From Mycolicibacterium moriokaense (GTDB lineage: Bacteria > Actinomycetota > Actinomycetes > Mycobacteriales > Mycobacteriaceae): a stretch of 64,000 nt of DNA. The DNA lies in assembly GCF_010726085.1 (NCBI RefSeq), contig NZ_AP022560.1, positions 3,472,001 to 3,536,000 on the forward strand, given 5' to 3'. Shown here piece by piece: positions 3,541 through 20,323 of this stretch. The notes under the pieces are model-generated. The model was given only the letters and a program-made list of their open reading frames with translations, was not told the DNA's origin and searched no databases. Numbering within the stretch: position 1 is the first letter of the stretch; each line of letters starts with the position of its first letter. The position numbers and the translations under genes were made by a program.

Positions 3541-4203
3541 TCAGGCCGGAGGCATCGGCGCCGGCGGTGCGCCCGGTGCCGGCGGCGGAGCCATCGGGTC
3601 GACCGGGGGCGGCGGCGCGAACGGATCGGCCGGCGGCGGGGGCGGAGGCGGCGCCAGCATCGGGTCCGGTCCGACCGGCGGAGCGGGCGGCGGAGGCGGT
3701 GCCATCGGCGGAGCGGGTGCCGGAGGTGGAGCCAGCATCGGATCCGGAGCCGGAGGCGGGGCCATCGGCGGCGGGGGCGCCTCTCCGGCCATCAACACGA
3801 CTGGGGCGCCAGGGGGTGGCGGCACCTGATCGGCAGGCATCGGCAGGAACATGTGCTTGGTGAACTGCGACTGGAACGCGCCGCCACCACCGACCTTCAC
3901 ACCGCCGCCCTCACCGGAGGACACCGGAGTGCCGTCGGGCAGCGTCGCGGCCGTGTGGCCGCCGTTCCAGCCGACGTTGAGGGCACCGGGCTGCGTGCCG
4001 TACTGGAAGCCACGCGAAAGCAGCGCCTGCTCGATGTTTCCGGTGTGGAATCGGTCCCCGTAGATGGGCCGGCCGGTGGCGGCGTTGGTGACCCAGGAGA
4101 CCAGACCCGAGCAGTCGGTGCCGGCCGGGGAATCCCCACCGCTGATGTACGGCGTGCCCGACACCGAGTTGACAAGCGTCAAAAGGGTTGCGACAGCAAA
4201 CAT
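3541..4203 (-). CDS. NlpC/P60-like protein with long proline-rich tail
   Basis: The N-terminal part (about residues 1-115) resembles NlpC/P60 cysteine-peptidase-like domains: TDCSGLVSW carries the expected nucleophile cysteine, and WNGGHTA a histidine. This core is common in mycobacterial and mycobacteriophage proteins. After about residue 140 the chain becomes roughly 80 residues of Pro/Ala/Met with two PDPMLAPPP copies, probably an extended cell-wall-spanning or protein-binding tail. No signal peptide is visible, so export would need another route. ATG 4203 (MFAVATLL) is preferred; an in-frame ATG at 4284 would add 27 residues, but that stretch is far less GC-rich than the gene and reads like leader DNA. 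The catalytic role is inferred. Confidence 0.7.
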   Translation of the reverse strand: MFAVATLLTLVNSVSGTPYISGGDSPAGTDCSGLVSWVTNAATGRPIYGDRFHTGNIEQALLSRGFQYGTQPGALNVGWNGGHTAATLPDGTPVSSGEGGGVKVGGGGAFQSQFTKHMFLPMPADQVPPPPGAPVVLMAGEAPPPPMAPPPAPDPMLAPPPAPAPPMAPPPPPAPPVGPDPMLAPPPPPPPADPFAPPPPVDPMAPPPAPGAPPAPMPPA

Positions 4204-4497
4204 GTGGCCGGACGTTAACAGAGCGTTTTGGGGGCCTCCAAAATCTGTGACCACCTTCACGCAAAATGGAGTGACGCCCATCATACCATGTGTAATCCAT
4301 GGACTGATTCACTGAAAATGCCACAGAAAAGGGCATATTGACGAGGGGGTTTGCCGAGCTGTGTGAATGGGATGACGATTTCGATTGGCTGAAGCGCATA
4401 TTCAAAATCAGGGCGTGTATCGGATACAAGCTATAGGCGCGAAATATATTGCAGTACAGGGAATTACAACCGCTGCCATGGCATGTTTGCGTCGGCA
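4204..4497. other. AT-rich intergenic region, probable promoter of NlpC/P60-like gene
   Basis: By eye this stretch of just under 300 bases is much richer in A and T than the genes on either side, particularly 4300-4480. It separates the 5-prime end of the NlpC/P60-like gene from the 3-prime end of the phosphodiesterase gene, so it should hold the promoter of the former on the minus strand. I could not single out a convincing -35/-10 pair. No gene, RNA or repeat is supported here. Confidence 0.4.
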
Positions 4498-5634
4498 TCA
4501 TCCGTGTGCGAGCAGCAGCGGGATGTTCTGCTCGGCGGTAGTGAGCGATCCGTGCTGGCCGATGAGCGACGATTCGAGGGGCTCGGCGGTTCGTCTCAGC
4601 AAACCTATGGACCCGCGAGCGGCGGCCACGACATCACCGATGCGGCGCCGCGTCTCGTCGGTCACGCGCTCGCCGAACCACCCCGCGTCGATCGCCTCGT
4701 CGCGCGACACCACCCACGCCCGTTCGGCGACGGTGTCCCGCCACGCGGCCAGGACGTCGTCGACGGCGCCGGGGGCTACATATATATGTCTCGCGCGCGC
4801 CTCGCCCCCGACATCCGTCACCCCCTCGGTCAGCGCGGGCTCGCTGTCGATGTCGACGGCCTCGGAGCTGTCCACCCAGACCATCCCGTGGTCGGCCACC
4901 ACCGCGAGCAATCCACCCGGCGGCAGGCCCTCTACCACCGATTCCACCAGGCGATCGACCTGGCGCAGCTGCAGTCGCCACGCGGGCGACCCGGGTCCGT
5001 AGAGGTGCCCCATCATGTCGAGCTCGCTGTGGTACGCGTAGCACAACCCGCCGTCGGCGACGGCCTCCTGGACACGTGCGGCCAGGTCGCCGAGCGCCTG
5101 CACGCCGATGTACCGACCGCCCCGCAGAACGGCACGCGTCATGCCGGATTCGGTGAATTCCGCGCCGGAGATCACGCTGACCTTGGCGCCGGCAGCGACG
5201 GCGCGTTCGAACGTCGTAGGCATGGGCTGAACCTGCTCGGGCGGCGCGGCTTTTCGGAGGTCGTCGCCCCACGGGTGCATACGCCACCGCAAAGGGTTCA
5301 CGACCCCGACATCCGGTAGTCGGAAGGAGTAGCCGACCAGGCCGTGCTCGCCGGACCGGCAGCCGGTGCCCAGCGACGCGAGCCCGGCGACGGTGGTGGC
5401 GGGAAAACCGACCTGCAGCGTGCGGCCACGCAGGCCCGCCATCACCGGAGCGTCGTCTGCGTGGGCATCGAGCAGTTCTGCGCCCAGCCCGTCGATGAGC
5501 AGTACGCACGCTCCGGCCACGTCTACGGGTAGCGGGATTCGGCCATCGAAACCCTCCACACCCATGGCCGTGAGAACCGACGGAATGACGTCCGCGAGGT
5601 GTGGGCTCTCCGGATCGGGTTTGGGTAGCTCCAC
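4498..5634 (-). CDS. nucleotide pyrophosphatase/phosphodiesterase (alkaline phosphatase superfamily)
   Basis: This 378-residue protein has the metal and nucleophile pattern of type I phosphodiesterase/nucleotide pyrophosphatases: VLLIDGLG (metal Asp 48), FPATTVAGL (nucleophile Thr near 80), a DMMGHLYGPGS block carrying Asp and His ligands, and ADHGMVWVD carrying the final Asp-His. Such enzymes hydrolyse phosphodiester or pyrophosphate bonds with two zinc ions. The substrate is not predictable. No signal peptide is seen, so it is likely cytosolic. The gene is divergent from the giant SARP-like gene; 79 nt separate the starts and contain an 11-bp-period direct repeat. A short alternating palindrome, ACATATATATGT, lies inside the coding region near 4780 and is unusually AT-rich for this genome. 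Confidence 0.85.
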   Translation of the reverse strand: MELPKPDPESPHLADVIPSVLTAMGVEGFDGRIPLPVDVAGACVLLIDGLGAELLDAHADDAPVMAGLRGRTLQVGFPATTVAGLASLGTGCRSGEHGLVGYSFRLPDVGVVNPLRWRMHPWGDDLRKAAPPEQVQPMPTTFERAVAAGAKVSVISGAEFTESGMTRAVLRGGRYIGVQALGDLAARVQEAVADGGLCYAYHSELDMMGHLYGPGSPAWRLQLRQVDRLVESVVEGLPPGGLLAVVADHGMVWVDSSEAVDIDSEPALTEGVTDVGGEARARHIYVAPGAVDDVLAAWRDTVAERAWVVSRDEAIDAGWFGERVTDETRRRIGDVVAAARGSIGLLRRTAEPLESSLIGQHGSLTTAEQNIPLLLAHG

Positions 5635-5663
5635 GATTCGAGCCTGCCACAGAACGAAGCGGT

Positions 5664-5681
5664 CTTTACCAAACCTTTACC
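5664..5681 (+). promoter_or_regulatory. SARP-type heptamer direct repeat (CTTTACC x2, 11-bp period)
   Basis: The exact heptamer CTTTACC occurs at 5664-5670 and again at 5675-5681, separated by AAAC, giving an 11-bp period. Streptomyces antibiotic regulatory proteins bind such tandem heptamers with 4-bp spacers on one DNA face. The site lies 32 nt upstream of the start of a gene whose N-terminus is a SARP-type DNA-binding head, and 30 nt upstream of the divergent phosphodiesterase start. Autoregulation is inferred. Only two repeats are present and no strong -10 follows. Confidence 0.45.
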
Positions 5682-5713
5682 GCTCATTGAATCCGCGTCC
5701 TGACGATGGTCAC

Positions 5714-8700
5714 GTGACTACGCTTCAACACGTGGAGCTGGGGGTTTTGGGACCTCTGCAGGTCCGGCAGCACGGTCTGCCGGTCGCAGTTCCCGGCGCC
5801 AAACCTCGGGCCATCCTGACAATGCTCGGCCTGCACGGCGGCTCCGTCGTCTCCGCCGACACCCTCGCCGAGCTTCTCTGGGGCGCTGATCCACCGCGCA
5901 CCGCGGCCAAGGCGTTGCAGACTCACATCTCCTCTCTGCGGCGCGCCCTTGGTGATGGCTTCGTCCTGACCGAGGGCTCGGGCTGGACCCTGAGCACGAC
6001 GGAGATCGACGCCACCCGCTACAAGGTGGCGGCCAGGCTGGGCCGCGACGCGATCGCGGCCGGGGATGCCGGTCAGGCGGTCGCCCGCTTCGACGAGGCG
6101 CTGGCCCTTTGGCGCGGAGTTCCCGAGCTGCCCGAGGGGCCGCGCGCTGATTCGGAGAGGACGCGCTGGATCGAGGGGCACGCCGCGCTGGTGGAGGACC
6201 GCGCCGACGCGCTGCTCGCGACGGGTCGCGCGGCGGAAATCATCGGTGAGCTGGAGGCGGCGATCGCCGACGCGCCGCTGCGCGAGCGGCGCTGGGGACA
6301 GTTGATGCTTGCCCTGTACCGCGCGGGACGGCAGGGTGAGGCGCTGGCCGCCTTCCAACGCGCACGGTCGCTGCTCGGCGACGAGCTGGGGGTAGATCCG
6401 GGTCCGAACCTGCGCCGGCTGGAGGCCGCGATTGTCGCTCAGGATCCCGCACTGGAAATCCCTGTGTCGCAGCAGCTTTCGGCGGTCACCAAAGCGGTGA
6501 CGTTCCTGCTCACCGACATCGAGGGGTCGACGGCGGCGTGGGAGGCGCAACCGGATGCCATGGCGGTGGCGCTGGCCCGCCACGACGAGATCGTCGAACG
6601 AGTCGTCACCTCCCGTGGCGGGCGGCTGGTCAAGACGCGGGGCGAGGGCGATGCAACCTTCTCGGTGTTCGACCGGCCGTCAGCGGCGGCCGCGGCGGCG
6701 ATTCAGTTGCAGGAGGCGATAGGTCACGAGCCGTGGGCGTTGGCGCAGCCGATGCGGATCCGGATCGCGCTGCACACCGGCGAGGTCGAACTGCGCGACG
6801 GCGACTACTTCGGCCGGGCGGTCAACCGCGCCGCGCGGCTGCGATCGCTGGCCGCCGGCGGACAGATCCTGTGCTCGGGCGCGACGGCGGAGCTAGTCAT
6901 CGACTCGCTCGCCGATGATGTCGTCCTCGCCGATTTGGGGATTCGTCAGCTGCGCAACCTCGCGCGTCCGGAGCACGTGTTCGAACTGCGTCTGGAAACC
7001 ACCGAGGAAGCGCCCGCTCAGCCGAGTGAGCCGCCGATCCAGCGACCCGCGCTGCCCGCGGTGCTGACCGGGGCGGGGCCGTTCGTCGGGCGCGGTCGAG
7101 AGCTTGCGGGGCTGTTGGCGGCCTGGCAGTCCACGCTCACGGTCGGGACGCAAGCGGTGCTGGTCGCTGGCGAGCCGGGGGTGGGGAAGACGCGGCTGGC
7201 CGGCGAATGGTCGCGTCAGGCGTACGAGCAAGGTGCGGTCGTCCTCTATGGCCGCTGCGACGAGGATCTCGGTGCGGCTTACCAGCCGTTCGCGGAGGCG
7301 TTGCGCTCGTTGATGCCGTGTCTCGGCGCCAAGCGGCTGCGCGCCCTGCGAGGTGTCGAAGCGCTGCTACCGTTGGTTCCCGGGCTCACCGAAGTCGTTC
7401 CCGATCTGCCGACGCCGCCGCGTTCGGACCCGGACACCGAACGTTATGCACTATTCGACGCGGTGGTCGCGCTGCTGGCGGCGGCGTCGGCGAGTGCGCC
7501 CGTCGTACTGATCCTCGACGACCTGCACTGGGCGGCCAAGCCCACGCTGCTGCTGTTGCGGCATCTGCTCCGCTTCGGCGAACACGCCCGAGTGCAGATC
7601 GTCGGCACGTACCGCAGCACCGACCTCGATCGCTCGCATCCGCTGGCGGCGATGCTGGCCGACCTGCATCGCGACGGCTCCGCCACGCGCCTTGCACTCA
7701 GCGGCCTCGATGAGGACGACGTCACCGCCTACGTTGCCGAGGCCGGTTACGACGACGAGGAGTTGGCCCGTGCGTTGGCGTCGGTAACGGGCGGCAATCC
7801 GTTCTTCCTCATCGAGGCGCTGCGGCATGTCGACGAAAGCGGCGGCCGGTGGGATCCGAGCACCCTGCCGCAGGGCGTTCGGGAAGCGGTGAGCCGCAGG
7901 CTTTCTCGACTGCCGGAGGAGACCAACAAGGCGCTGGCCGCGGCGGCGGTTGTCGGCAGCCGGTTCCCGCTGGCTTTGGTGGAAAGTGTCGTCGGCACGG
8001 ATTTGATCGACGCATTCGACGAGGCGTGCAAGGCGGGCATCGTCATCGAGGAGCCCGGTGGACGTTATCGGTTCAACCACGCTTTGGTGCGGCAGTCGTT
8101 GCTCGCCGAGCTTGCGTCGGTGCGACGGATGCGGCTGCATCAGAGGATCGCCGCGACTCTCGAGGCCGAGGCCGGCGCGGACGACGACGAGCTGTTGGCC
8201 GAATTGGCGTACCACTACTTCGAGTGTGCGTGGGCGGGCAACGCGGCCAAGGCAGTTGAGTACTGCCGGCGCGCCGCAGATCAGGCGATGGCGCGGCTGG
8301 CCTACGAGGGTGCGGCCGATCTCTTCGACAAGGCGTTGCACGCGTTGGAGGAGCTTGACGAGGAACTGCCGGATCGCGACGCCCTGCAGGCTGAACTGTT
8401 GGTTGCGCGATGTGAAGCCCTGTTGGCCGCGGGCGATGTGGTGTCGGCGGCGGGTGCGGTGGCGCAGTTGCAGCGAGCCGCGGGTGATTCGGTGCGTCTG
8501 GCGGCCTGGGGCGCGTGTTTCGATGGCGAGCTTTCGATGCTGACCGAGCCCGAACGCTTGGATGAGATCGAAGCCGCGGTGGCTGCGGCGGCCGAAAAGC
8601 TGGCCGGTTTGGAGGATGCGGCGGGGGAGGCCAAGGCACACACCGTGCGGGCGATGTGCCTGGCTCGGCTGGGCAGGATCGGCGACGCGGAGACCGCGCT

Positions 8701-11700
8701 GGACCAGGCGCTGACGGCGGCGCGGCGGGCGCATGAGCACCGACGCGTGAACGCCGTGCTGGCAGGCGCACCGTTGGCGGCGCTGTGGGGGCCGAATCCG
8801 GTGCCGCGCGCGGGCGGGCGGTGTCTCGATGTCGTTCGGCTGCTTCGCATCACGACGGGATCGCCGGTGGTGGAGGCGACATCGACGAGGTGTCAAGGTG
8901 TGCTGGATGCGCTGCGTGGGCGGGCCGCCGCGGGGCGTGCGTTGATCGACTCGGCTCGCAGATCACTCACGGAACTCGGCATGCGGCATGCGCTGCTGGA
9001 GGTGGATCAGTTCGCGGGCATCGTCGAGTTGGTTGCCGACGATCCCGCGGCCGCGGAGCCGCTGCTTCGGCGCGCGTATGACGGTTTTCGACGGATGGGG
9101 CTGGACGCGGATACTGCGGAGACCGCGGCGTTGTTGGCGCGAGCGTGCTTGGCGCTCGACCGGGATGCCGAGGCTGACGAATTGTGTGCGGAGAGTGAGC
9201 GTCTTGCGGGCCATGCGCTGAAGCCGTCAATTGCTTGGCGAACTGTTCGTGCACAACTGCTGGCGCGCAATGGCACCCATGATGAGGCGAGGCTGGTGGC
9301 GCAGGAAGCCGTTGCGGTCGCCGAGCGCACCGATCTGCTGGTCGACCACGGTGATGCCTGCCTCGCACTGGCGACGGTGTTGGACATGGCTGGTGACGCC
9401 GCCGGAGCGCGGGCGGCTGCGGAGCGAGCGGCTGAACTGTATGAACTGAAAGGCGCTGCCGCACTTGCGGGGAAGGCGCGCCAGCTCGTGGGCACGAGAA
9501 TCCCGCCCGTCCGATCAGAGCCGGAGATACCGGACCGCGAACTGGACAACGAGTGTATGCGCACACTTCGCCGCGTCGATGCTGCCGTCCAGAACTCAGA
9601 TCGAGCCGCGATGGAACGAGAGTATGCACCGCTTGGCTCGATCGAAAGCCGCCGCAAGATCGTCGGGTTCACACGGGTCGCGTATCGACCACACGAATTC
9701 GTAAGTGAAACTGAAACCTTTGCTCATGGACTGCATGCGACGCGTTCGCGCCGTTCGATCCTGGCCTTGCGGGGCGAGCGTTTGTCTCTCTCCAGGTTGG
9801 AGGTCGGTACCCCAGACGTGAGTCCTGGGGCGCCACAGGACGAGTGGCTGCAGGTTGTCGGACTCGACGAGAACGGTCGAATCGTGGTGCAGGTGTGGTT
9901 CGACGTCGAGGACCTCGAGGCCGCGATGGCAGAGCTCGACGCCATGCATGCCGACGTCGAACTGGAAAACGAGTGTGTGCGCGTACTCCGCCGGGTCGCG
10001 GACGCGGTGAGCCGTCGCGCATTGAGCGAAGTCGAGCGCGAGCATGCATCAATCGGGTCGATCGAGAGCCATCGAAAGATCGTCGGCTTCGAGCGGATGG
10101 ATCTGCCTGCCCGCGAAATGGCACGTGGAGCAGACAGGTTCATCCGCGATATGCGCGCCGTGCAGAGGCATCGCTCCATCATCGCCATCCGGGGAGAGCG
10201 CCTCGCGTTGGCGCGAAGCGTGGTGGGCACTGCAGACGCGACTCCTGGGGCGCCGCAGGACGAGATGCTGCAGCTCGTCGGCCTCGACGACGACGGTCGA
10301 ATCGCGCTGCAGATCTGGTTCGACGTCGAGGACATCGACGCCGCGATAGCTGAAATGGAAGCGACGCACGCCAGGTTCGAACACGGCAGGCCGACAAGGC
10401 GACTCGAGAATGCGGCAAGTCGAGTCGAGGACCAGTGTTACGCCCTCTTCACGCAAGGCCGCGCTGACGAGATCGCAGCGCTGCTCGCGGTTGATCACTT
10501 CAATGAAGACCGGCGCCGGGGACTGCGTCGTGTGACGCGCGATCGCGCGGCGGCGCTGGAGAATATCCGGGCAATCGCCGACCTGGGTGTCGGGGCCACA
10601 AATGTGCCGATTGCTCTGCGCGGAAATCGGCTATGCCTCAGTCGTATCCAGTGGGAGCAGCGCCAAGCTGGACCCAACCCCTTTACTGCCGAGACGCTGG
10701 AACTGAGTGAAGTCGATGCGGAGGGGCTTGAGACCACAAGGGTGGTATTCGACCCGGACGACGTCGAGGCCGCCTTCCAGGAACTCGACGCGCGATATCT
10801 CTCGGGCGAAGCGGCCGCGCACGCGCACACGTGGTCGGTCATCGCAGGCACCTTCGCGGCCGTGAGCCACGACGAGGTTCCACCTATGTCACCCGACTGC
10901 GTCACGCTGGATCACCGCCGGACGAGAAATTTCGCTCCCGGCGACCTCGAGGCGTATGTCCAGGCCGGACATGACCTAGATCAACACATCGAGACCCACG
11001 TCCAGGTCGTGCATCGCCTAAACGACCTCGGGGCTGTCGTCGGTTACGTGGCGTATACGAGGTCGAAAGAGGGCTTCGACGCCGAATGGCGCGAAGTCAG
11101 CCTCTCGATAGTCGATGGTGACGCAGTCACCCGTTGCGAGCTCTTCGAGGACACCGATCTCGACACCGCGGTCGCGAAGTTCGACGCGCTCACCCGATCG
11201 GCAGTGCAACTGGAAAACGCGGCGACCCGGGTCAACAACCGCTTCGACGCGTGTCTGGCTGACCGCGATTGGAAGTCAATGGCCGCCGTGGTGGCCGCGG
11301 ACATGTGCCATGACGACCGTCGGCGGGTCGTAGGCGCCGGAATCCGGCGCGGTCGGAATGCCGAAATCTCGGACATGCAGGCCATCGCCGGATTGGGTGT
11401 TGTGAGTGCGAAGTCCACCGTGGTCGCGACCCGCGGCGAGCGTCTTGCCCTTCTGCGGACTCGCTTCTCGGGGCGAGAGGAAGGTCCAGATGCCTTCCAT
11501 ACCGACATCGTCGACATCATCGAGATCAACGCCGACGACCAGATCACGAGGCGGATCGCATTCGACGCCGACGATATTGAGGCCGCGTTCGAGGAGCTCG
11601 AGGCCCGGTATCTCGCAGGCGAGGCGGCCGCGTATGCGCAGACCTGGTCCGTCGTCGTCGGTGTCTTTGCAGCGTTGGCTCGTCACGAGATGCCGGACGT

Positions 11701-14700
11701 AACGCCGGAGTGGACATCTGTCGATCACCGGCGAGGGACGCCGCTCGCGGATGCGGACCTCAGAGAAATCGTCAGCACCCTCAACGACCTCACGCCAAAT
11801 CTCACCAATCGCGTTGAGTCGGTGCATGCATTGCGCGATCACGCGGCGCTTTTCACTCAGGTGTCGCGCGGAACATCGCCGGAGGGCTTCGATGCCGAAT
11901 GGCGAATGATCAACCTGATGACGGTTGACGGCGACGAGGCAAGTCGCTGTGAACTATTCGACGAGGCGGACCTCGATGCGGCGCTCGCCCGGCTCGACGA
12001 ACTCACCCGCCCCACACCGCGACTGGAGAATGCCGCGACTCGGGTCATCGAGCAGTTCAGTGCCAGCGTCTCGGCGCGTGACTGGGGTGCCGTGGCGGAG
12101 CTGCTGGCCGACGACTTCTGCGATGACGATCGACGGCGGGTGGTGAGCAGCGCCATCCAACGCGGCCGGGATGCCCAGATCGCAAACTTGCGGGCAATCA
12201 CCGATCTCGGAATGGGAAGTTTCGAGCCAGTTGTCATTGCGATCCGTGGGCAGCGCCTGGCGCTTACCCGCACTCGGGTTACGGGCGGCGCGGGCAGTCC
12301 CCATATGTTCGGCCTCGAACCGCTGACGGTCGGTGAGATCAACGGGGATGGCCAGCTAGTGGCGGCGGTCCACTTCGACGATCTTGATGCCGCATTCGAA
12401 GAGCTCGACGCCCGGTATCTCGCAGGCGAGGCAGTCCCGTATGCGCAAGCGTGGTCGGTGCTCACCCAGGGATACGCGGCGGTGAGGAGGCATGAGCTTC
12501 CGGAGTGGACCCCCGATGCGGTGAATGTCGACCACAGACGGGGAGCCGCGTTCGCCCCAGGTGAACTCTCTTCGTATGTGCGCGAAATGTGGCACCAAAC
12601 GCCAGACGTCAGCATCTACATCGAGGCGGTTCATCGACTGAGCCCTGTCGGCGCGGTCGTCACTCATGTCGCGACCGGAACCTCCCAACATGGATTCGAG
12701 GGGGAGTGGCGAGTAATCACCCTTACGAAGATCGACGGCGACCGAATCAAACACAGCGAACTCTTTGACGAGAAAGACCTCGGTGCGGCGCTGGCGCGGT
12801 TCGACGAACTTTGTCGCCCCGCAACGCGATTGACGAATACGGCCAGCCGGGTTGAAGCACGCTGTCAGGCGCAGATCGCCGCGGGTAACTGGGACGCGGT
12901 GGCTTCGGTGATGGCTGACGACATTGTGATCGACGATCGCCGGCGGGTGGTCAACGCCGGTCTTCGGCGCGGTCGAAGCGCCGTGGTCGACGACCTACGA
13001 GTAGGGGCCAAGATCGGTCTCACAGAGATAGCACGAACTGGCATTGCGACCAGGGGCGAGCATCTGACCCTCAGCCACATCCGCTACGGGAGCGGGGCGC
13101 AGCGACCCGAGTCGAGTGTGATCGAGCTCGCTCAACTCGTCGAGATCGATGCGGACGAGCGGATCGCTGCGCTCGTCCTTTTCGATCCCGAGGACATTCA
13201 TGCTGCATTCGAAGAACTCGATGCGCGGTACCTCGCCGGCGAAGCAGCTGCGCATTCGCAGACGTGGTCGGTGGTCGTGAAGGCTTATGCCTTGATGAAT
13301 CAGCGCGGCTTACCGGCGACCACGCCGCGATGGGTGAACATCGACCACCGCAGGGGAGCTACCTTCGCATCAGGCGATATGACCGCGTACGTAGAAGCGG
13401 CGTGGGCTGACCTCGAGCAGAACCTCCGCATTTACGTCGAGGCTGCGCATCGACTCAATGAATCCGGAACCGTCGTCACCCAGGTTCTGAGAGGCACCAC
13501 GCGCGAAGGCTTTGACGCTGAATGGCGGACGATCAACCTCTTTACCGTCGAGGGCGAGCTATTCAGCCGGTGCGAGTTGTTCGACGAGGCTGATCTCGAC
13601 GCCGCACTTGCCCAGTTCGATGAACTCAGTCGGCCGAAACCTCCGATGGAGAACGCGGCGAGCCAATTGGGCGTTCGTTTCCGGGCATCATTCGCTGCCC
13701 GCGATTGGGACGCGATGGCTGAGATGTTGGCAGACGACCTGCAGAACGAGGACCGCCGCCGAGTCGTGAACGGTGGGATTCGACGCGGCAAGTACTCGCT
13801 GTTGCATGACATGCGGCCTGCCGCCAGCTTCGGGATCCAAGAATTTGCGACCGACGTGATCGCAACGCGCGGTGAACGTCTCGTCCTGGCTCGGGCAGAG
13901 TCGCGTTACGAAGCGAGACCCGGGGCGTTTTACGTCGAGAACGTTGTACTAGGCGAAATCGATGGTGACGGTCGAATGACGGCCCAGATCATTTTCGATG
14001 TCGACGACATCGATGCTGCCTTTGAAGAACTCGACGCCCGGTATCTCACCGGTGAGGCGGCCCCGTACGCAGACATATGGTCGGTCATCGCAGCGGGCTA
14101 TGCCACGCTCAACCGACACGAGCTGCCTCCGACCCCACCAGACTTCGTCAACCTCGACCACCGAAAGGGTGGAGGTACTTTCGCGGTGGGCGATCTGCTC
14201 CCATTTATCCATGCTTCGTGGGAGGACACGCCAGACAACAAGATCCGCGTCGAGGTTGTCCATCGACTGAACATGTTTGGGGCTGTCGTCACCAGCGCGA
14301 CGCAGGGTACGTCTAGAACGGGCTTCGCCGCCGAGTGGCGACAGATCGATCTGGTGACCGTCGATCGCGGCATGATCAATCGCACTGAATTGTTCGATGA
14401 GGTAGACCTCGACGCAGCATTAGCCAAGTTCGACGAACTCAGCGGACCAGCGCGAATCGAAAACACCGCGACCCGCGCGGAAGCGCGCGCCTTGGCGTGC
14501 TTTGCGACCCGCGACTGGGCGTCCATGGCGGAGTACTTGGCGGAGGATCTTTCGCTTGACGATCGTCGCCGCATCGTGAACGCCGGGACGCGGCGTGGTC
14601 GAAGTGCTGCGATCGCCGATGCGCGGGCCGTGGCGGGTCTGGGCGGCACTGAGATCACCTCGGATGTCATCGCCACGCGCGGCGACCGTCTCTTCCTCGC

Positions 14701-17700
14701 ACGTTCCCACCTGTCCAGCCGCGGCCAAGGGCCCGAAACGTTCAACACCGAGTCGCTGTGCGTCGCGATGAGCGATGACGACGGGCGGATTGCCGCCAGA
14801 GTGGTGTTTGATCCCGACGACATCGATGCGGCGCTAGCGGAACTCGATGCCCGATACGTGGCGAGCGAAGCGTTGCCATATTCCCGGGTGTGGTCCGTCA
14901 TCACCGATACATATGCCGCGCTAAACCGCCACGAGCTCGCGCCGATACCGCCGGACTGGGTCTATGTCGACCGCCACAGTCCCGCACTGTTCCACGGTGA
15001 CTTCGCTGCAAACATGCGCGCCGCGTGGGAAGTCATGCCCGATTGGCACATCGATATAGTCGCGGTCCACCGCCTCACTCATATCGGGGCAGTACTCACT
15101 GCTGTCGCTCGTGGAACCTCGCGGCAGGGCTTCGGCGGTGAAGAGCCGGGCATTGCAGTGGTGACCGTTCGAGACGACGGGATTAATCGCTTCGAGTACT
15201 TCGACGACGCCGATCTCGACGACGCGCTCGCGAGGTTCGATGAGCTCAGTAGGGAAACAGGTCGGCCGCAGAACCAGGCGAGTCGACTGCATGAACGGCT
15301 CGATGCAGCCTTCTCTGCCCGTGACTGGGCCGCGATGGCAGAGCTGTTGGCGGATGACACGTCCACAGACGATCGACGTTCCATTGTCGGTCTGGGGCTT
15401 CGACGCGGCAGGGATGCCGCGATCGGCGATTGGCGTGCGATTGCGGACGTCGGTGTCAAGGACATCACTGCCACCGTGATCGCAACTCGCGGAGAACATC
15501 TCGTACTCAGTCGCTACCGATTCGGCGGGCACGATCAGAGGTCGGAGGCATACCGCACGGAGGTGCTCGGCATCGTCGAGATCGACGACGAACAGCGGAT
15601 CACGGCCTGCGTGATGTTTGACCTCGAAGAGATCACTGCTGCGTTTGAGGAACTCGACGCTAGGTACGCAGAAGGTGAGGCGGCGTCGCGCTCCCATACC
15701 TGGACACTGGTCAAGGGAATATTTGCCGCGATGAACCGGAGCGAATTGCCTGCGGCGACACCGGATTGGGTGGTTGAGGATCATCGTCGCCTGCCGATGA
15801 TCCAAGATGCGTCGCGCGACGCGTACCTGGCGGCTGCAATAGAGGTCCCGCGAACCGCCGTGTACATCGAGTCGGTGCATCGGCTCGGCAACTCGGCGGC
15901 CTTACTGTCCTGGCAGGGGGATTGGACGACACCGGACGGGTTCGATGCTCAGTGGCGGGGGATCAGTCTCACGATATTCGATGGCGATTTGATCGACCGC
16001 GTCGAGATTTTCGACGAGGACGATCTGGACGCCGCGCTTGCGCGGTTCGACGAACTCATGGTCCCAGCAAGCCAACTGGCGAATATGGCGAGCCGTGTGG
16101 CCGACAAGTATGAGGAGTCTTTGGCGGCGCGCGATTGGGCGGCGATGGCGGAGGTACTGGCCGAGGACATCGTCGCCATAGACCGGCGTCGGGTCGTGAA
16201 TGCCGGCGTCCGCCGAGGGCGAGATGTGCAGATCGCGGATATGCAAGCCGCTGTCGAGGTCGGGTTCGAGCATATGACATTTCGCCTCATCGCGACCCGG
16301 GGCGAACGCCTGGTCCTCAAACGTGTCCATACAAGGAACCGTGGTCAGTTGCCCGGTGAAGTCAGCGCGGAGATGCTCGGCATCATCGAGATCGATGCGG
16401 ACAATCGAATTGCCGCGACGGTCGCATTCGACCTCGACGACGTCGACGCTGCGTTCGCCGAGCTCGATTCTCGTTATCTTGCTGGGGAAGCCTCGGCTCA
16501 CGCAGAGGTCTGGTCCGTCGTGGCTGATATCTACGCAGCCCTCAACCGTCGTGAACTGCCGGCTACGACACGTGATTGGGTCAATGTCGACCATAGGACG
16601 GGGGTCTGCATTCCGGCAGGTGAGATGACAGCGTTCCTTCATGCCGCGGGGGAGTTGACTCCTGACGCCAGAATCCATGTTGAAGCGGTGCATCGGGTGA
16701 CCGATCTCGGAGCAGTGCTCACGCAAGTCCAGCGTGGTACGTCAAGCGAAGGCTTCGAGGCGGAGTGGCGAGAGGTCGTCATCTTCGCGGTCGACGGCGA
16801 TTTGATCAGTCGCGTAGAGATCTTCGACGAAGCAGACCTTGACGACGCGTTGGCGCGGTTGGAGGAATTGACACCCGCAGCGCCCCAACTGAATAACTCC
16901 GCGATCCGCGGGGATACCCAAGCCGCAGACGCATTCAACACTCGGGATCTGGACAGCTACCTCGCCGCGTTTGACCGCGATGCGCGTTATGAGGACCGGC
17001 GAAAAGGCCTGCGCAACGAGGGCCCAGTGGACCATGAACTCGCACATGGACTGTTGTTCACCGGAGCGCCGACTTGGCGTGTCGAGATCGCGCCAGTCGC
17101 GATCCGAGGGCCTCGTCTGGCACTAGTTCGCCATATCTGTCGCGACAACGGCGAGGCCGATCGCCCGGTCGTTGCAGAGGTGCTGGCGCTTGTAGAGGCC
17201 ACCGAGGACGAATTGCTTTGCCGCAGTATTCTTTTCGATCCCGAAGACATCGAAGCTGCCTTCGCGGAACTGGACACCCGCTGGATAGCGTCGGGGGATT
17301 GCACCCACACAAAGGTCGACGCTGTCCAGACCACCCATCTCGAGACGTTCGCACCTCTGCTGAAGAACGCAGCAACCCGCATCCTCACACGCGTAATAGA
17401 TGCATTCAGCAGACGCGACCCTGATGGGTATCTCGCACTTTTCGCCAAGGACTGCATGTACGAAGATCGGCGAAAAGGGCTGCGCGACGCGGGTTCAATC
17501 AGGCCGGAATACGCGCACACAGTGACATTCGGTGCGGCCGCCGGGTGGCGTGCGGAGTTTGAGCCCATCGCCGTCAGGGGCGAGCATCTGATGCTGAGCC
17601 GCGTGACATTCCGCGATCTGAGCGAGACCGGTAGTCCTATCGCTGTCGAGGCTTTGAACCTCGGCAGTCTTGACAACGACGAATTGATCTCGTGGTTCGC

Positions 17701-18181
17701 GATTTTCGACCCCGAAGACATCGACTCGGCCTTCGATGAGCTCCATGCTCGGTGGATCGCGTCGGGTGAGGTAGACCATCCAGAAGTCATCGAATCGATG
17801 CGCCAAGTGATCGAATGCGCCAACCGTCAAGACTGGGATACGTTGGCCGCTCGCGAATCCGGCGCCACGTTCGTCAACCACCGACAGCTCGGGACTGGGG
17901 ACAAGATCGGTGACCACTGGACATCCCTCCGCGCGATGGCGTCACTGATTCCCGACATCCGCGTAGACGTCGCCGACATTCCCAAGCACTCCGCGAAGGG
18001 GGTCGTCATCAGCGTTGTCGTCAGAGGCGCGACGGCCGAGGGCACTGCGATCGAACTGCCGACCGTCATTCTTCTCCACTTCGACGGACCTCGCGTGACG
18101 CGGATGGAGGCCTTCGATCACAACCAACGCGATCAGGCACTCGCTCGCTTCGACGAACTCGACCATATTGGCGCGGTCTAG
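5714..18181 (+). CDS. giant SARP/BTAD - adenylyl cyclase - STAND ATPase - SnoaL/NTF2-array protein
   Basis: One continuous frame of 4,155 residues. Residues 7-93 look like an OmpR/SARP winged helix and 96-245 the BTAD helices. Residues 257-435 are a class III cyclase with metal aspartates D268 (TDIEGST) and D313, K307, and the transition-state pair N371/R375, so catalysis looks possible. Residues 455-800 are an AAA/STAND ATPase with Walker A GEPGVGKT (486-493) and Walker B ILDDLHW (600-606). Residues 800-1260 are helical/TPR-like. From about 1276 to the end lie roughly 21 SnoaL/NTF2-like units: two A-like copies 140 residues apart, eight A-B pairs with A starts at 1564, 1833, 2104, 2373, 2645, 2915, 3185 and 3455, then two A units and a last B. 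The array is visibly less GC-rich than the head. GTG 5714 is chosen; GTG 5732 is possible. It is inferred to be a cytosolic one-component regulator; its ligand is unknown. Confidence 0.88.
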   Translation: MTTLQHVELGVLGPLQVRQHGLPVAVPGAKPRAILTMLGLHGGSVVSADTLAELLWGADPPRTAAKALQTHISSLRRALGDGFVLTEGSGWTLSTTEIDATRYKVAARLGRDAIAAGDAGQAVARFDEALALWRGVPELPEGPRADSERTRWIEGHAALVEDRADALLATGRAAEIIGELEAAIADAPLRERRWGQLMLALYRAGRQGEALAAFQRARSLLGDELGVDPGPNLRRLEAAIVAQDPALEIPVSQQLSAVTKAVTFLLTDIEGSTAAWEAQPDAMAVALARHDEIVERVVTSRGGRLVKTRGEGDATFSVFDRPSAAAAAAIQLQEAIGHEPWALAQPMRIRIALHTGEVELRDGDYFGRAVNRAARLRSLAAGGQILCSGATAELVIDSLADDVVLADLGIRQLRNLARPEHVFELRLETTEEAPAQPSEPPIQRPALPAVLTGAGPFVGRGRELAGLLAAWQSTLTVGTQAVLVAGEPGVGKTRLAGEWSRQAYEQGAVVLYGRCDEDLGAAYQPFAEALRSLMPCLGAKRLRALRGVEALLPLVPGLTEVVPDLPTPPRSDPDTERYALFDAVVALLAAASASAPVVLILDDLHWAAKPTLLLLRHLLRFGEHARVQIVGTYRSTDLDRSHPLAAMLADLHRDGSATRLALSGLDEDDVTAYVAEAGYDDEELARALASVTGGNPFFLIEALRHVDESGGRWDPSTLPQGVREAVSRRLSRLPEETNKALAAAAVVGSRFPLALVESVVGTDLIDAFDEACKAGIVIEEPGGRYRFNHALVRQSLLAELASVRRMRLHQRIAATLEAEAGADDDELLAELAYHYFECAWAGNAAKAVEYCRRAADQAMARLAYEGAADLFDKALHALEELDEELPDRDALQAELLVARCEALLAAGDVVSAAGAVAQLQRAAGDSVRLAAWGACFDGELSMLTEPERLDEIEAAVAAAAEKLAGLEDAAGEAKAHTVRAMCLARLGRIGDAETALDQALTAARRAHEHRRVNAVLAGAPLAALWGPNPVPRAGGRCLDVVRLLRITTGSPVVEATSTRCQGVLDALRGRAAAGRALIDSARRSLTELGMRHALLEVDQFAGIVELVADDPAAAEPLLRRAYDGFRRMGLDADTAETAALLARACLALDRDAEADELCAESERLAGHALKPSIAWRTVRAQLLARNGTHDEARLVAQEAVAVAERTDLLVDHGDACLALATVLDMAGDAAGARAAAERAAELYELKGAAALAGKARQLVGTRIPPVRSEPEIPDRELDNECMRTLRRVDAAVQNSDRAAMEREYAPLGSIESRRKIVGFTRVAYRPHEFVSETETFAHGLHATRSRRSILALRGERLSLSRLEVGTPDVSPGAPQDEWLQVVGLDENGRIVVQVWFDVEDLEAAMAELDAMHADVELENECVRVLRRVADAVSRRALSEVEREHASIGSIESHRKIVGFERMDLPAREMARGADRFIRDMRAVQRHRSIIAIRGERLALARSVVGTADATPGAPQDEMLQLVGLDDDGRIALQIWFDVEDIDAAIAEMEATHARFEHGRPTRRLENAASRVEDQCYALFTQGRADEIAALLAVDHFNEDRRRGLRRVTRDRAAALENIRAIADLGVGATNVPIALRGNRLCLSRIQWEQRQAGPNPFTAETLELSEVDAEGLETTRVVFDPDDVEAAFQELDARYLSGEAAAHAHTWSVIAGTFAAVSHDEVPPMSPDCVTLDHRRTRNFAPGDLEAYVQAGHDLDQHIETHVQVVHRLNDLGAVVGYVAYTRSKEGFDAEWREVSLSIVDGDAVTRCELFEDTDLDTAVAKFDALTRSAVQLENAATRVNNRFDACLADRDWKSMAAVVAADMCHDDRRRVVGAGIRRGRNAEISDMQAIAGLGVVSAKSTVVATRGERLALLRTRFSGREEGPDAFHTDIVDIIEINADDQITRRIAFDADDIEAAFEELEARYLAGEAAAYAQTWSVVVGVFAALARHEMPDVTPEWTSVDHRRGTPLADADLREIVSTLNDLTPNLTNRVESVHALRDHAALFTQVSRGTSPEGFDAEWRMINLMTVDGDEASRCELFDEADLDAALARLDELTRPTPRLENAATRVIEQFSASVSARDWGAVAELLADDFCDDDRRRVVSSAIQRGRDAQIANLRAITDLGMGSFEPVVIAIRGQRLALTRTRVTGGAGSPHMFGLEPLTVGEINGDGQLVAAVHFDDLDAAFEELDARYLAGEAVPYAQAWSVLTQGYAAVRRHELPEWTPDAVNVDHRRGAAFAPGELSSYVREMWHQTPDVSIYIEAVHRLSPVGAVVTHVATGTSQHGFEGEWRVITLTKIDGDRIKHSELFDEKDLGAALARFDELCRPATRLTNTASRVEARCQAQIAAGNWDAVASVMADDIVIDDRRRVVNAGLRRGRSAVVDDLRVGAKIGLTEIARTGIATRGEHLTLSHIRYGSGAQRPESSVIELAQLVEIDADERIAALVLFDPEDIHAAFEELDARYLAGEAAAHSQTWSVVVKAYALMNQRGLPATTPRWVNIDHRRGATFASGDMTAYVEAAWADLEQNLRIYVEAAHRLNESGTVVTQVLRGTTREGFDAEWRTINLFTVEGELFSRCELFDEADLDAALAQFDELSRPKPPMENAASQLGVRFRASFAARDWDAMAEMLADDLQNEDRRRVVNGGIRRGKYSLLHDMRPAASFGIQEFATDVIATRGERLVLARAESRYEARPGAFYVENVVLGEIDGDGRMTAQIIFDVDDIDAAFEELDARYLTGEAAPYADIWSVIAAGYATLNRHELPPTPPDFVNLDHRKGGGTFAVGDLLPFIHASWEDTPDNKIRVEVVHRLNMFGAVVTSATQGTSRTGFAAEWRQIDLVTVDRGMINRTELFDEVDLDAALAKFDELSGPARIENTATRAEARALACFATRDWASMAEYLAEDLSLDDRRRIVNAGTRRGRSAAIADARAVAGLGGTEITSDVIATRGDRLFLARSHLSSRGQGPETFNTESLCVAMSDDDGRIAARVVFDPDDIDAALAELDARYVASEALPYSRVWSVITDTYAALNRHELAPIPPDWVYVDRHSPALFHGDFAANMRAAWEVMPDWHIDIVAVHRLTHIGAVLTAVARGTSRQGFGGEEPGIAVVTVRDDGINRFEYFDDADLDDALARFDELSRETGRPQNQASRLHERLDAAFSARDWAAMAELLADDTSTDDRRSIVGLGLRRGRDAAIGDWRAIADVGVKDITATVIATRGEHLVLSRYRFGGHDQRSEAYRTEVLGIVEIDDEQRITACVMFDLEEITAAFEELDARYAEGEAASRSHTWTLVKGIFAAMNRSELPAATPDWVVEDHRRLPMIQDASRDAYLAAAIEVPRTAVYIESVHRLGNSAALLSWQGDWTTPDGFDAQWRGISLTIFDGDLIDRVEIFDEDDLDAALARFDELMVPASQLANMASRVADKYEESLAARDWAAMAEVLAEDIVAIDRRRVVNAGVRRGRDVQIADMQAAVEVGFEHMTFRLIATRGERLVLKRVHTRNRGQLPGEVSAEMLGIIEIDADNRIAATVAFDLDDVDAAFAELDSRYLAGEASAHAEVWSVVADIYAALNRRELPATTRDWVNVDHRTGVCIPAGEMTAFLHAAGELTPDARIHVEAVHRVTDLGAVLTQVQRGTSSEGFEAEWREVVIFAVDGDLISRVEIFDEADLDDALARLEELTPAAPQLNNSAIRGDTQAADAFNTRDLDSYLAAFDRDARYEDRRKGLRNEGPVDHELAHGLLFTGAPTWRVEIAPVAIRGPRLALVRHICRDNGEADRPVVAEVLALVEATEDELLCRSILFDPEDIEAAFAELDTRWIASGDCTHTKVDAVQTTHLETFAPLLKNAATRILTRVIDAFSRRDPDGYLALFAKDCMYEDRRKGLRDAGSIRPEYAHTVTFGAAAGWRAEFEPIAVRGEHLMLSRVTFRDLSETGSPIAVEALNLGSLDNDELISWFAIFDPEDIDSAFDELHARWIASGEVDHPEVIESMRQVIECANRQDWDTLAARESGATFVNHRQLGTGDKIGDHWTSLRAMASLIPDIRVDVADIPKHSAKGVVISVVVRGATAEGTAIELPTVILLHFDGPRVTRMEAFDHNQRDQALARFDELDHIGAV
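9541..10395 (+). repeat. tandem 420-nt duplication inside the giant gene
   Basis: Two adjacent segments of about 140 codons begin near 9541 and 9961. Their 3-prime halves (about 9820-9953 and 10240-10373) are nearly the same at the DNA level, with shared blocks such as cctggggcgcc and tggttcgacgtcgagga. They are the first two units of the C-terminal array and look like the most recent duplication in it. Both lack the DDRRR motif of the later units and carry RRKIVGF or HRKIVGF instead. Confidence 0.7.
10403..16888 (+). repeat. eight-copy A-B domain repeat, period about 810 nt
   Basis: Successive A units start at 10403, 11210, 12023, 12830, 13646, 14456, 15266 and 16076, with the next A at 16889. 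The intervals are 807, 813, 807, 816, 810, 810, 810 and 813 nt. Each A unit carries a DDRRRVV-like motif, an ATRGERL motif and a closing FEELDARYLAGEA. Each B unit carries WSVV, VDHRRG, VEAVHRL, EGFDAEWR and closing ELFDEADLDAALARFDEL. Protein identity is high but DNA identity is moderate, so these copies are old and kept in frame. They probably represent SnoaL/NTF2-like ligand-binding folds. Confidence 0.8.
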
Positions 18182-19434
18182 TTGTTGTTGGGTGGTTGGG
18201 GTTCGAAGGGGTTGTACCACCACCATTGGGCGCGTTCGCCGAGGGGACCGGGGCAGGGTGGGACGTTGGGTGGGGGTGTGGTGGGTGGTCGGGCTAGTGA
18301 TGCGGGGCTCAGTATTTGGCCGGTGTCGTCGGTGACGGTGAGGCGCTCGGGGGGTCCGGTGATGGTGATCTCGCCACGGTGATGCATGCGGTGGTGATAC
18401 GGGCACACCAGGACGAGGTTGTTCATTTCGGTGAGGCCGCCGTCTTCCCAGTGCCGTAGGTGGTGGGCGTGCAGGCCGCGGGTGGCGCCGCATCCGGGCA
18501 CGGCGCAGGTGGGGTGGCGGAATTCCAGGGCGCGGCGCAGTCGGCGGTTGATCAGCCGGGTGGTGCGCCCGGCGCCGATGACGTTGCCGTCCCGGTGGAA
18601 CCAGACTTCGGCGGTGGCGTCACAGGTGAGGTATTGGCGTTCGGCGTCGGTCAGCAGCGGCCCCAAGTGCAGTGAGCCGAGGCGTTCTTTGACGTCGAGG
18701 TGCACGAGGACGGTGGTGTGTTGGCCGTGGGGTCGGCGCGTGACGTCGGCGTCCCAGCCGGTCTGGATCAGTTGCAGGAACGCGTCCAGGGTGGTCGGAA
18801 ACGGCGGCCGCAGCGGGGAAGCCTTTTTGTGGGGGTCGTGGTCGGCGGGATTGTCGTCGGTGTCGTCGAGATTGTGGTCGCGTTTGTATTGGGCGATCAG
18901 CGCGTCGTGATGGGATTTCAGCGCGGCGTCGAACATTGCGGCTTCGGGGTGGGCGAGTCGGATGCGCCAACAAGTGAGGTTGTCGTCGCTGGTTTTGGTG
19001 ATCGAGGGTTGGGGGGCCCAGGGGCTGGGTTCCGGGCGTGGTTCCAGTCGTACCGCGGTGCGCAGTTGGGTGACGGTGGCCACGGCGGCCAGTGGGGCGT
19101 AGTGGTCATCGGAGCCGTCGGCGGCGCGTGCGGCGATGACGCCGACCTGATCCAGTGAGAGCCGGCCTTCGCGCATCCCGGCCACACAGCGGGGGAACTG
19201 GGCGAGTCGGCCGGCTATGGTGGCGATGGTTTTGGCGTTGGTCGGGGAGGTGCCGGTCTTCCAGGCCATCAGCGCCGCCAGCGACCGTGCGCCGGTGATC
19301 CCCCTGAGCCGGTCGTTTTCGATCTCGGCGGCGATCTCCACGATGCGCGCATCGATGGCGTTGCGTTGACCGCTTAACTCCGCCAACTCGTCGAACAACA
19401 CCTCAAGACGCTCTTTCGGTGCGATCGCCAACAT
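18178..19434 (-). CDS. 13E12 repeat family HNH endonuclease-like protein (DUF222 + HNH)
   Basis: Residues 1-300 are the DUF222 region typical of mycobacterial 13E12 (REP13E12) proteins, and residues near 315-360 form an HNH nuclease core: CAVPGCG, then HAHHLRHWEDGG, then N and CPYHHRMHH. The cysteine pairs probably bind structural zinc. Length, 418, is usual for the family. Such genes occur in many copies in mycobacteria and some serve as phage integration targets; their cellular role is not settled. The C-terminus is proline-rich and ends with three Asn. Its TAG stop shares the CTAG at 18178-18181 with the TAG of the convergent giant gene. The divergent ArsR-type gene begins 94 nt from its start. 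Confidence 0.9.
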   Translation of the reverse strand: MLAIAPKERLEVLFDELAELSGQRNAIDARIVEIAAEIENDRLRGITGARSLAALMAWKTGTSPTNAKTIATIAGRLAQFPRCVAGMREGRLSLDQVGVIAARAADGSDDHYAPLAAVATVTQLRTAVRLEPRPEPSPWAPQPSITKTSDDNLTCWRIRLAHPEAAMFDAALKSHHDALIAQYKRDHNLDDTDDNPADHDPHKKASPLRPPFPTTLDAFLQLIQTGWDADVTRRPHGQHTTVLVHLDVKERLGSLHLGPLLTDAERQYLTCDATAEVWFHRDGNVIGAGRTTRLINRRLRRALEFRHPTCAVPGCGATRGLHAHHLRHWEDGGLTEMNNLVLVCPYHHRMHHRGEITITGPPERLTVTDDTGQILSPASLARPPTTPPPNVPPCPGPLGERAQWWWYNPFEPQPPNNN

Positions 19435-19471
19435 GACCCCATCAAAACAACAGGGTCCGACAAGTTGACCA

Positions 19472-19501
19472 TTGACATGCAGCCCAGCGGCTGCCTATGT
19501 T
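19472..19501 (+). promoter_or_regulatory. sigma-A type promoter TTGACA-N18-TATGTT of ArsR-SRPBCC operon
   Basis: A consensus -35 hexamer TTGACA lies at 19472-19477 and a -10-like TATGTT at 19496-19501, with an 18-nt spacer. Transcription should begin near 19508, about 20 nt before the chosen start codon. The TTG of the -35 is in frame with the gene, so a start there would be a misannotation. The spacer contains the first inverted repeat and the region just after the -10 contains the second. Confidence 0.6.
19479..19494. promoter_or_regulatory. operator 1: GCAGCC-N4-GGCTGC inverted repeat
   Basis: GCAGCC (19479-19484) and GGCTGC (19489-19494) form a perfect 6-bp inverted repeat lying inside the promoter spacer. 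It shares the ATGCAGCC sequence with operator 2. Binding of the adjacent ArsR-type regulator is inferred from position and shared sequence. Confidence 0.55.
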
Positions 19502-19504
19502 AAA

Positions 19505-19526
19505 CATGCAGCCAATCAGCTGCATG
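19505..19526. promoter_or_regulatory. operator 2: CATGCAGC-N6-GCTGCATG inverted repeat
   Basis: CATGCAGC (19505-19512) and GCTGCATG (19519-19526) are a perfect 8-bp inverted repeat that covers the expected transcription start and ends 2 nt before the ATG at 19529. Together with operator 1 it would block both polymerase binding and escape, as expected for an autorepressed ArsR-family gene. Confidence 0.6.
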
Positions 19527-19528
19527 AA

Positions 19529-20323
19529 ATGGATATGGCAGAGATGGACGAGGTATTCAGGGCGCTGGCGGATCCAAACCGGCGTCTGCTGCTCGACAGC
19601 CTCAACACCCGCAACGGTCAGACCCTGCGCGAGTTGTGCGCGGGTCTGTCCATGGCGCGGCAGTCGGTCAGCAAGCATCTGGCGGTGCTCGAATCGGCGA
19701 ACCTCATCACGACGGTGTGGCGGGGCAGGGAGAAGATGCACTACCTCAACGCCGAACCGATCAACGCCATCGCCGACCGCTGGATCAACCAGTACGACCG
19801 TGCGCGTGTACAGGCACTCGCCGATCTCAAAATCGCATTGGAGACCGAACCGATGAGCAGTAGCCCCGAATTCGTCTACACCACCTACATTCGGACCACC
19901 CCGGAAAGACTTTGGCAGGCGATCACCGATCCGGCGTTCTCGCACCGCTATATGGGCCACGCAATAGCGTCCGACTGGCAGAAAGGCTCGACCTACGTCT
20001 GGGAGGACCGAGAGCTGCGGATCGAGCACCCGGAACAGGTGATTCTCGAAGTCGATCCCTATCGCAGGCTTGCCTTTACCTTTCACACGTTCGTCCCAGA
20101 GCTGACCGAGCTCGGTCTCGACGAGGACGTGATCGCCAAAGCGGCCGCGGAGCGGCGCTCGAAGGTGTCGTTCGACATAGAACCAGTGGACGACGGCCAG
20201 GTGAAGCTCACCGTCATCCATGACGACTTCCCGCCGGAAAGCACTGTGCGCGAGCTAATCTCCGGTGGCTGGCCATGGAAGCTGGCCAACCTCAAGAGCG
20301 GACTGGAGGAGGACGCGCGATGA
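19529..20323 (+). CDS. ArsR-family HTH regulator fused to SRPBCC/AHSA1 domain
   Basis: This 264-residue protein combines two modules usually encoded by adjacent genes. Residues 5-95 are an ArsR winged helix (DEVFRALADPNRRLLLDSL, then the recognition helix region ARQSVSKHLAVLE). Residues about 115-264 are an SRPBCC/AHSA1-like ligand-binding domain (FVYTTYIRTTPERLWQAITD). No metal-binding cysteine motif is seen in the HTH, so a small hydrophobic ligand sensed by the SRPBCC part is more likely than a metal; this is inference. Start choice: ATG 19529 follows a promoter and operators that rule out starts further upstream; ATG 19535 and 19544 are alternatives. The stop overlaps the next ATG (ATGA), so the DUF899 gene is translationally coupled. 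Confidence 0.85.
   Translation: MDMAEMDEVFRALADPNRRLLLDSLNTRNGQTLRELCAGLSMARQSVSKHLAVLESANLITTVWRGREKMHYLNAEPINAIADRWINQYDRARVQALADLKIALETEPMSSSPEFVYTTYIRTTPERLWQAITDPAFSHRYMGHAIASDWQKGSTYVWEDRELRIEHPEQVILEVDPYRRLAFTFHTFVPELTELGLDEDVIAKAAAERRSKVSFDIEPVDDGQVKLTVIHDDFPPESTVRELISGGWPWKLANLKSGLEEDAR

Follow-up and report, generated by a model that had tools for sequence, protein, structure and literature searches.

A mycobacterial SARP-cyclase-STAND protein with a mosaic tail of NTF2-like units and a putative operator before its own gene

What might a bacterial regulator do with 21 NTF2-like domains strung behind its switch in a single polypeptide? This question is raised by a gene in a 64,000-nucleotide stretch of Mycolicibacterium moriokaense (the window; contig NZ_AP022560.1 of assembly GCF_010726085.1, positions 3,472,001 to 3,536,000), which forms one unbroken frame (5714..18181, +) from a GTG start to a stop at 18181 and encodes 4,155 residues. 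We found that a nearly constant SARP-cyclase-ATPase head is followed by a mosaic array of two alternating unit types and that a conserved triple repeat precedes the gene. We favor, at a probability of roughly 0.55, a PimR-class SARP-STAND switch that regulates itself and carries a hypervariable NTF2-like sensor of modular build.

The gene, its head and its array

An initial annotation of this DNA had placed SARP, cyclase and STAND ATPase parts in that order in one frame, ahead of about 21 SnoaL/NTF2-like units; Pfam matches and the frame itself bear out the order, and unit models, first built from the window protein and then rebuilt from its relatives, give 21 units. The parts of the protein are as follows:

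5801..5956, +, winged helix DNA-binding domain, Trans_reg_C (residues 30-81; Pfam)
6005..6433, +, BTAD domain (residues 98-240; Pfam E 3e-37)
6488..6895, +, class III nucleotide cyclase, Guanylate_cyc (residues 259-394; Pfam; Ma1120 and others in the PDB)
7079..7597, +, AAA_16 / STAND ATPase (residues 456-628; Pfam)
7634..9523, +, helical TPR-like region (residues 641-1270; TPR_12 at 1179-1244 under the Pfam cut-off)
9542..10369, +, leading A units 0 and 1 (residues 1277-1412 and 1417-1552; unit models)
10400..16879, +, eight A-B pairs, units 2-17 (residues 1563-3722; unit models)
16886..17287, +, unit 18, an A with no B after it (unit models)
17360..18163, +, terminal A-B pair, units 19 and 20 (unit models)

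The SARP part is matched by AfsR and EmbR in the PDB across residues 4-256 (E 3e-35 to 7e-34 for AfsR). Seven cyclase residues (D268, K307, E311, D313, D364, N371 and R375) are each invariant in 151 of 151 heads, as are the Walker A sequence GEPGVGKT and the Walker B sequence LDD of the ATPase; the second metal site of the cyclase is GEGD, two residues longer than the GDG of Ma1120, and is likewise invariant across the 151 heads. Production of cAMP by the cyclase domain, which the initial annotation had proposed, is a possible second output of the protein. Heads of 159 proteins have a median identity of 83% (79-89%, 5th-95th percentile).

A mechanical open reading frame (ORF) call opens further upstream, at 5366, and alignment of the window with 49 loci backs GTG 5714 as the start codon (GTG in 48 of 50 sequences, ATG in two), with a conserved block immediately upstream of it in the 50 sequences. 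Compared with M. barrassiae, the ratio of nonsynonymous to synonymous divergence (dN/dS) is 0.07 for the head and 0.18 for 18 tail units, and by this measure both head and tail are under purifying selection. We rejected an origin of the array as a chance open frame on dN/dS and on the existence of relatives. An Rfam scan of 4000-20000 gave no match. Promoter-like and terminator-like sequences were no more frequent than in shuffles, and no persuasive terminator lay inside the gene.

The tail (residues 1277-4150) comprises 12 A and 9 B units in the order AA(AB)8 A AB. Periodicity is evident along the protein, identity peaking at lags of 270-271 and 540 residues, and the tail carries a SnoaL_2 Pfam match (whole-protein E 1.4e-33). 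The A-B pairs of the window protein are 44-50% identical to each other, and units of one array are mostly about 50% identical in amino acids and about 60% at the DNA level; Tandem Repeats Finder left the array unreported because its units are too diverged in DNA. Both unit types retain motifs: D-R-R in A units (90%, 93% and 99% of 1613 units, with the Arg of an ATRG sequence at 99.9%) and D-H-R in B units (95%, 93% and 98% of 1462 units).

Predicted structures of A and B units both match NTF2/SnoaL/ketosteroid-isomerase folds (cone-shaped alpha+beta), in agreement with the initial annotation, and the different fold that would have refuted it did not appear. The top Foldseek rows are the tandem epoxide hydrolases MonBI/MonBII, and Lsd19. 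We rejected Lsd19/MonB as a model for the arrangement of a pair, as those rows span two A units at a root-mean-square deviation (rmsd) of 12-24. Sequence searches of the PDB gave no match at E 0.01 with an A-B profile and E values above 0.3 with an A or B profile alone, apart from one designed TIM barrel, which we set aside as a repeat artefact.

Searching with the tail returned 827 proteins among 1,795 scored, and all of the best 120 are long array proteins; among these 120 listed matches, nearly all named sources are Mycobacterium. The protein lists used here are the best 120 of 827, of 2539 and of 1301 matches, and a genome-contig scan that kept 80 of 206 relatives yielded 70 loci. Within the genus of the window, A-B pairs occur in 50 of 118 sampled genomes (E 1e-40). 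At the order level they were found in 15 of 249 genomes (1e-25), all of the window genus and thus in one of 68 genera, and at the phylum level in 4 of 296 genomes (1e-18), the fourth belonging to a different class (L173). Nine pattern matches in viral contigs included no relative. A few matches are named from uncultured organisms outside the Mycobacteriaceae: judging by genome name, Acidimicrobiaceae (P0085), Sericytochromatia (P0141), Acidothermaceae (P0229), Ilumatobacteraceae (P0296) and Cybelea (P0275).

The order of units follows a simple grammar. We compiled 196 entries (120 proteins plus 76 locus frames; duplicates, fragments and the paralogue L009 are among them), of which 152 are complete, with a head and a natural end; A+(AB)n fits 140 of these 152, and 128 of 139 distinct tails. 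The 12 complete entries that depart from it are the window gene, two M. barrassiae records, eight that end in A, and L009. No two B units are neighbors in any of the 196 entries, and an internal A-A neighborhood, as at unit 18, occurs only in the window gene and its M. barrassiae orthologue. Each added pair contributes 269.9 residues (residual standard deviation 10.7), which together with the A-B order indicates that the pair is the unit of growth. Complete entries hold 2 to 21 pairs, and one open-ended locus holds 25, so that the homologue search that the initial annotation had proposed shows arrays of as few as 2 pairs and of at least 25. That locus has the longest array seen (L012 1-20452, at least 50 units), open at the contig end of an uncultured actinobacterial genome.

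The gene is in one frame at 65 of the 70 loci, some of the 65 ending at a contig edge. At the other five (L042, L044, L056, L068 and L075) a frame change inside the array splits it into two overlapping frames, which may reflect sequencing error or decay. None of the 70 loci is split between head and array, the boundary at which the initial annotation had thought independent genes might appear. At the five split loci, each piece was treated separately in comparing units; the ABABAB alignment (A2) holds 64 of 68 locus rows and 6 window rows, four split-frame loci being omitted, and alignment A4 holds 39 of 77 A references.

A constant head and a mosaic tail

Comparison with the M. barrassiae orthologue (L010) separates the two halves of the protein. 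The head is 96-98% identical by part and 18 of the 21 units are 82-99% identical, against a background synonymous divergence (dS) of 0.23 for the head and 0.24 for those 18 units. Three units stand apart:

12020..12421, +, unit 6 (A), replaced relative to M. barrassiae (53% amino-acid identity, dS 1.21)
13235..13636, +, unit 9 (B), replaced relative to M. barrassiae (54% amino-acid identity, dS 1.25)
14861..15256, +, unit 13 (B), partly diverged from M. barrassiae (74% amino-acid identity, dS 0.62)

The drops in identity at units 6 and 9 coincide with unit borders. Because divergence jumps at silent sites too, whole-unit recombination, rather than fast change in place, accounts for them. Units 10, 11 and 20 lie well under the background, at dS 0.07, 0.03 and 0.01. 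The values for units 11 (14051-14452) and 20 (17771-18163) suggest recent exchange with M. barrassiae.

Similar replacements recur among isolates. We compared 16 pairs, being all isolate pairs with heads 93-99.9% identical plus P0001 and P0088 (an earlier set of 17 had been hand-picked). Of 197 aligned units in internal positions, 8 (5 A and 3 B) are replaced between well-kept neighbors. Unit number also differs in 13 of the 16 pairs; the pair L047/L053 shows no change at all. Between L074 and P0088, units are 97-100% identical except at the start (A 59%, A 40%, B 57%) and at one internal pair (A 46%, B 85%). Conversely, 93 unit pairs are at least 88% identical though their heads are less than 88% identical, several of them at different array positions, such as unit 15 of P0030 and unit 19 of P0077 (95%); these 93 come mostly from metagenome entries, with duplicates retained. 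Sequence comparison thus indicates that single units are exchanged and that A-B pairs are gained or lost.

We considered two other sources of the swaps. Paralogues in the same genome were rejected as donors: in five of six same-genome pairs no unit is shared at 80% identity, and the sixth has a single shared unit at 0.80, in a comparison that involved cut contigs in four of the six. Short-read misassembly is a less likely general cause in isolates, given that DNA identity between units is only about 60%, and may contribute in metagenome entries.

A triple repeat upstream of the gene

The conserved block before the start codon contains a candidate operator:

5664..5692, +, putative SARP operator of three repeats (CTTTACC 5664-5670, CTTTACC 5675-5681, ATTGAAT 5686-5692)
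5702..5707, +, possible -10 element GACGAT (A at position 2, T at position 6)

The repeats lie 11 bp apart start to start, with 4-bp spacers, about 50 bp before the start codon. Across the 50 aligned upstream regions the common pattern is CTTTAC-N5-CTTGAC-N6-TTGAA, exact in 42 and present in looser form in 44. In the window, GACGAT begins 9 bp past the third repeat and ends 6 bp before GTG 5714, an arrangement that would possibly give a leaderless message. GACGAT follows the looser box in 31 of its 44 regions and GA[CA][GC]AT in 39, at a fixed distance from the box and 10 bp beyond the last A of the shared pattern. SARP operators have been described with repeats 11 bp apart and the 3' repeat 8 bp from the -10 element (PubMed Central (PMC) entry PMC10936776), and the PimR operator as three heptamers with 4-bp spacers (PMC3367932, PMC5930380), as far as the excerpts of these papers go.

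The exact triple box occurs in 101 of 297 genomes of the genus, once in each save for two copies in G102, and the reversed-pattern control occurs in none of the 297. In the first 118 genomes it is present in 39 of 50 with arrays and in 2 of 68 without; the exact form is missing from the other 11 array genomes. Thirty-one of 32 box sites examined (30 listed loci plus G047) precede the head of an array gene. At L143, the frame seems shifted near the start of the gene behind the box. G045 keeps the box (L150 15014-15041, -), and no array protein could be traced by tblastn within 17 kb of it; 0.2 kb past the box sits a gene that lies downstream of the array gene in 14 other loci, a configuration that looks as it would after a deletion. 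Most simply read, this pattern has the SARP part working at its own promoter, the obvious first candidate for a target of the gene product. One further site in the window genome (G000:C1:2502348-2502375, -; L153) has 2 mismatches to the triple box.

Related proteins, possible mechanisms and known systems

The array gene has no conserved partner: the commonest downstream neighbor was found in 14 of 58 regions and the commonest upstream neighbor in 10 of 47. In the window it is flanked by genes for an AMP-binding enzyme, YaaA, a DUF222/HNH protein and others with no evident link to it. The DUF222/HNH gene (18178-19434, -) is convergent with the array gene, and their stop regions overlap by 4 bp.

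A paralogue in the same genome (L009 5599-12951; G000:C1 about 4011598-4018950) encodes 2,450 residues with a double zinc ribbon (Pfam), cyclase, AAA_16 and TPR domains and five A-B pairs. Its cyclase gives weak PADLOC matches to PycC, the Pycsar cyclase. The protein from another class, L173, has a Cys-rich start that looks zinc-ribbon-like by sequence, then cyclase, ATPase and TPR parts and units AABAA, and is 39% identical to the window head from residue 250 on (1,091 aligned columns). A likely history, inferred from these relatives, is that an older zinc-ribbon cyclase-STAND protein with few units was joined by a SARP part in mycobacteria, where the array grew.

We propose that at rest the ATPase/TPR part would restrain the SARP part, as reported for AfsR. 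Ligand entry into the pocket of one or more tail domains would shift the state of the ATPase and free a SARP dimer. This dimer would bind the triple repeat upstream of the gene and increase the gene's expression; the cyclase might provide a second output. Unit exchange would then change the range of ligands while the switch stays the same. These ligands would most likely be small, hydrophobic molecules resembling steroids, polyketides or lipids, since molecules of that kind are bound by the closest solved folds.

Several observations weigh against this proposal. The functional target of PimR is pimM, and the excerpts of its descriptions do not report PimR on its own promoter as sole target; the box sequence differs from that of PimR, and the gap to the putative -10 hexamer is 9 bp rather than 8 (8 if the register is shifted by one). 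The window genome has no second exact triple box. Allowing up to 3 mismatches, the triple pattern has 5 sites there versus 2 for the reversed control, and a two-repeat pattern with up to 1 mismatch has 25 versus 53; none of six near-box contexts inspected in that genome was convincing as a further target. Judged from the box, self-repression fits as well as self-activation. On the tail side, many mosaic examples come from metagenome assemblies, and a six-unit model reaches a predicted template-modeling score (pTM) of just 0.50, so that the packing of pairs in it is tentative. Variability between units is 2.23 bits in strands versus 2.00 in helices for A and 1.78 versus 1.72 for B, values that do not appear to place unit diversity in the pocket. 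Finally, there is a serious rival in a protein-sensing, immune-like role.

In that rival, the protein would be a bacterial analogue of fungal NLRs, its units recognizing protein surfaces of phages or competitors and its SARP and cyclase parts raising the alarm. It draws on the STAND core with a variable C-terminal sensor of exchangeable repeats, and on the constant head and mosaic tail with unit gain and loss. The published excerpts describe fungal het-d/het-e repeats as gained, lost and shuffled (PMC12222747) and antiviral STAND proteins as having variable C-terminal sensors (PMC10907252). However, the window protein (P0001) matched no PADLOC family, no neighbor or effector gene is fixed beside it in the counts above, NTF2-like pockets are classic small-molecule sites, and units are about 50% identical within an array versus the 80-100% quoted for the fungal repeats (PMC12222747). 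We consider this role unlikely. Less probable again is a tail of chained enzymes: units would keep catalytic residues, the tail would be an enzyme or a scaffold for sequestration, and regulation would come second. In its favor are an Asp close to where ketosteroid isomerase (KSI) has its base, followed by an Arg, the conserved D-R-R, ATRG and D-H-R motifs, and the tandem epoxide hydrolases and Lsd19 among the best Foldseek rows; yet the tail is fused to a DNA-binding ATPase, the equation of the Asp with the KSI base comes from a weak profile alignment (E about 1), and the long Lsd19/MonB rows align at an rmsd that implies a different pair arrangement. Largely neutral repeat expansion, with unit number and identity drifting and few units mattering, would suit the spread in pair number (2 up to at least 25) behind the same head, as well as the frame-broken copies and gene loss. 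The dN/dS of 0.18 over 18 tail units, the strict A-B order and motifs kept across thousands of units make it very improbable.

We therefore retain the self-regulating switch with its modular sensor as the preferred reading. A broader proposal, which we offer tentatively, is a constant/variable receptor: one switch gene per genome, with units (up to 50 per protein) circulating among mycobacterial strains and species, so that combinatorial recognition of chemicals or of non-self would be gated through a self-directed SARP operator. The A-B grammar, single-unit exchange and self-directed operator had not figured in the initial annotation. If the preferred reading is true, this is a large, widespread and apparently undescribed mycobacterial regulator family in which sensing is modular by whole ligand-binding domains and evolves through exchange of single domains. 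It would supply a natural collection of NTF2-like binding sites that selection acts on, form a bacterial counterpart to NLR receptors built on variable repeats, and lend itself to asking how many sensors a single STAND switch can integrate.

The initial annotation had called a tail this long and regular unlike any regulator known to it, a claim not supported in that wording, as the head belongs to the known PimR-type class of SARP, cyclase and large-ATPase parts and the tail has hundreds of relatives. This assignment is made by architecture and from excerpts of published descriptions of PimR. Like PimR (and PteR, SanG and PolR, according to the published account), the window protein has an N-terminal SARP followed by cyclase-like and large-ATPase parts, and its box resembles the PimR operator in sequence layout. 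By contrast, those excerpts mention no such tail, and the heptamer sequence is a different one; the C-terminal half of PimR is said to be without the N-terminal cyclase signature, whereas the window cyclase motifs are present and invariant; and the window box stands ahead of the gene itself, not of a pathway regulator. AfsR (SARP-NOD-TPR) shares the SARP domain, ATPase, TPR and 11-bp repeat spacing, and lacks the cyclase and the NTF2-like array. The zinc-ribbon/cyclase/AAA_16/TPR proteins L009 and L173 have a homologous cyclase-to-TPR part and the same unit types, with a zinc ribbon in place of the SARP and shorter arrays. Lsd19, MonBI-MonBII, Rv0760c and SnoaL2 share the NTF2-like fold, as stand-alone or two-domain proteins that are mostly enzymes. 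Fungal HNWD NLRs (het-d/het-e) combine a STAND core with a repeat sensor altered by gain, loss and shuffling, although theirs is built of WD40 repeats of high identity and has cell death as its output. Among the matches listed in the open-licence PMC literature, the long alternating array, single-unit exchange and one-box-per-genome pattern are undescribed.
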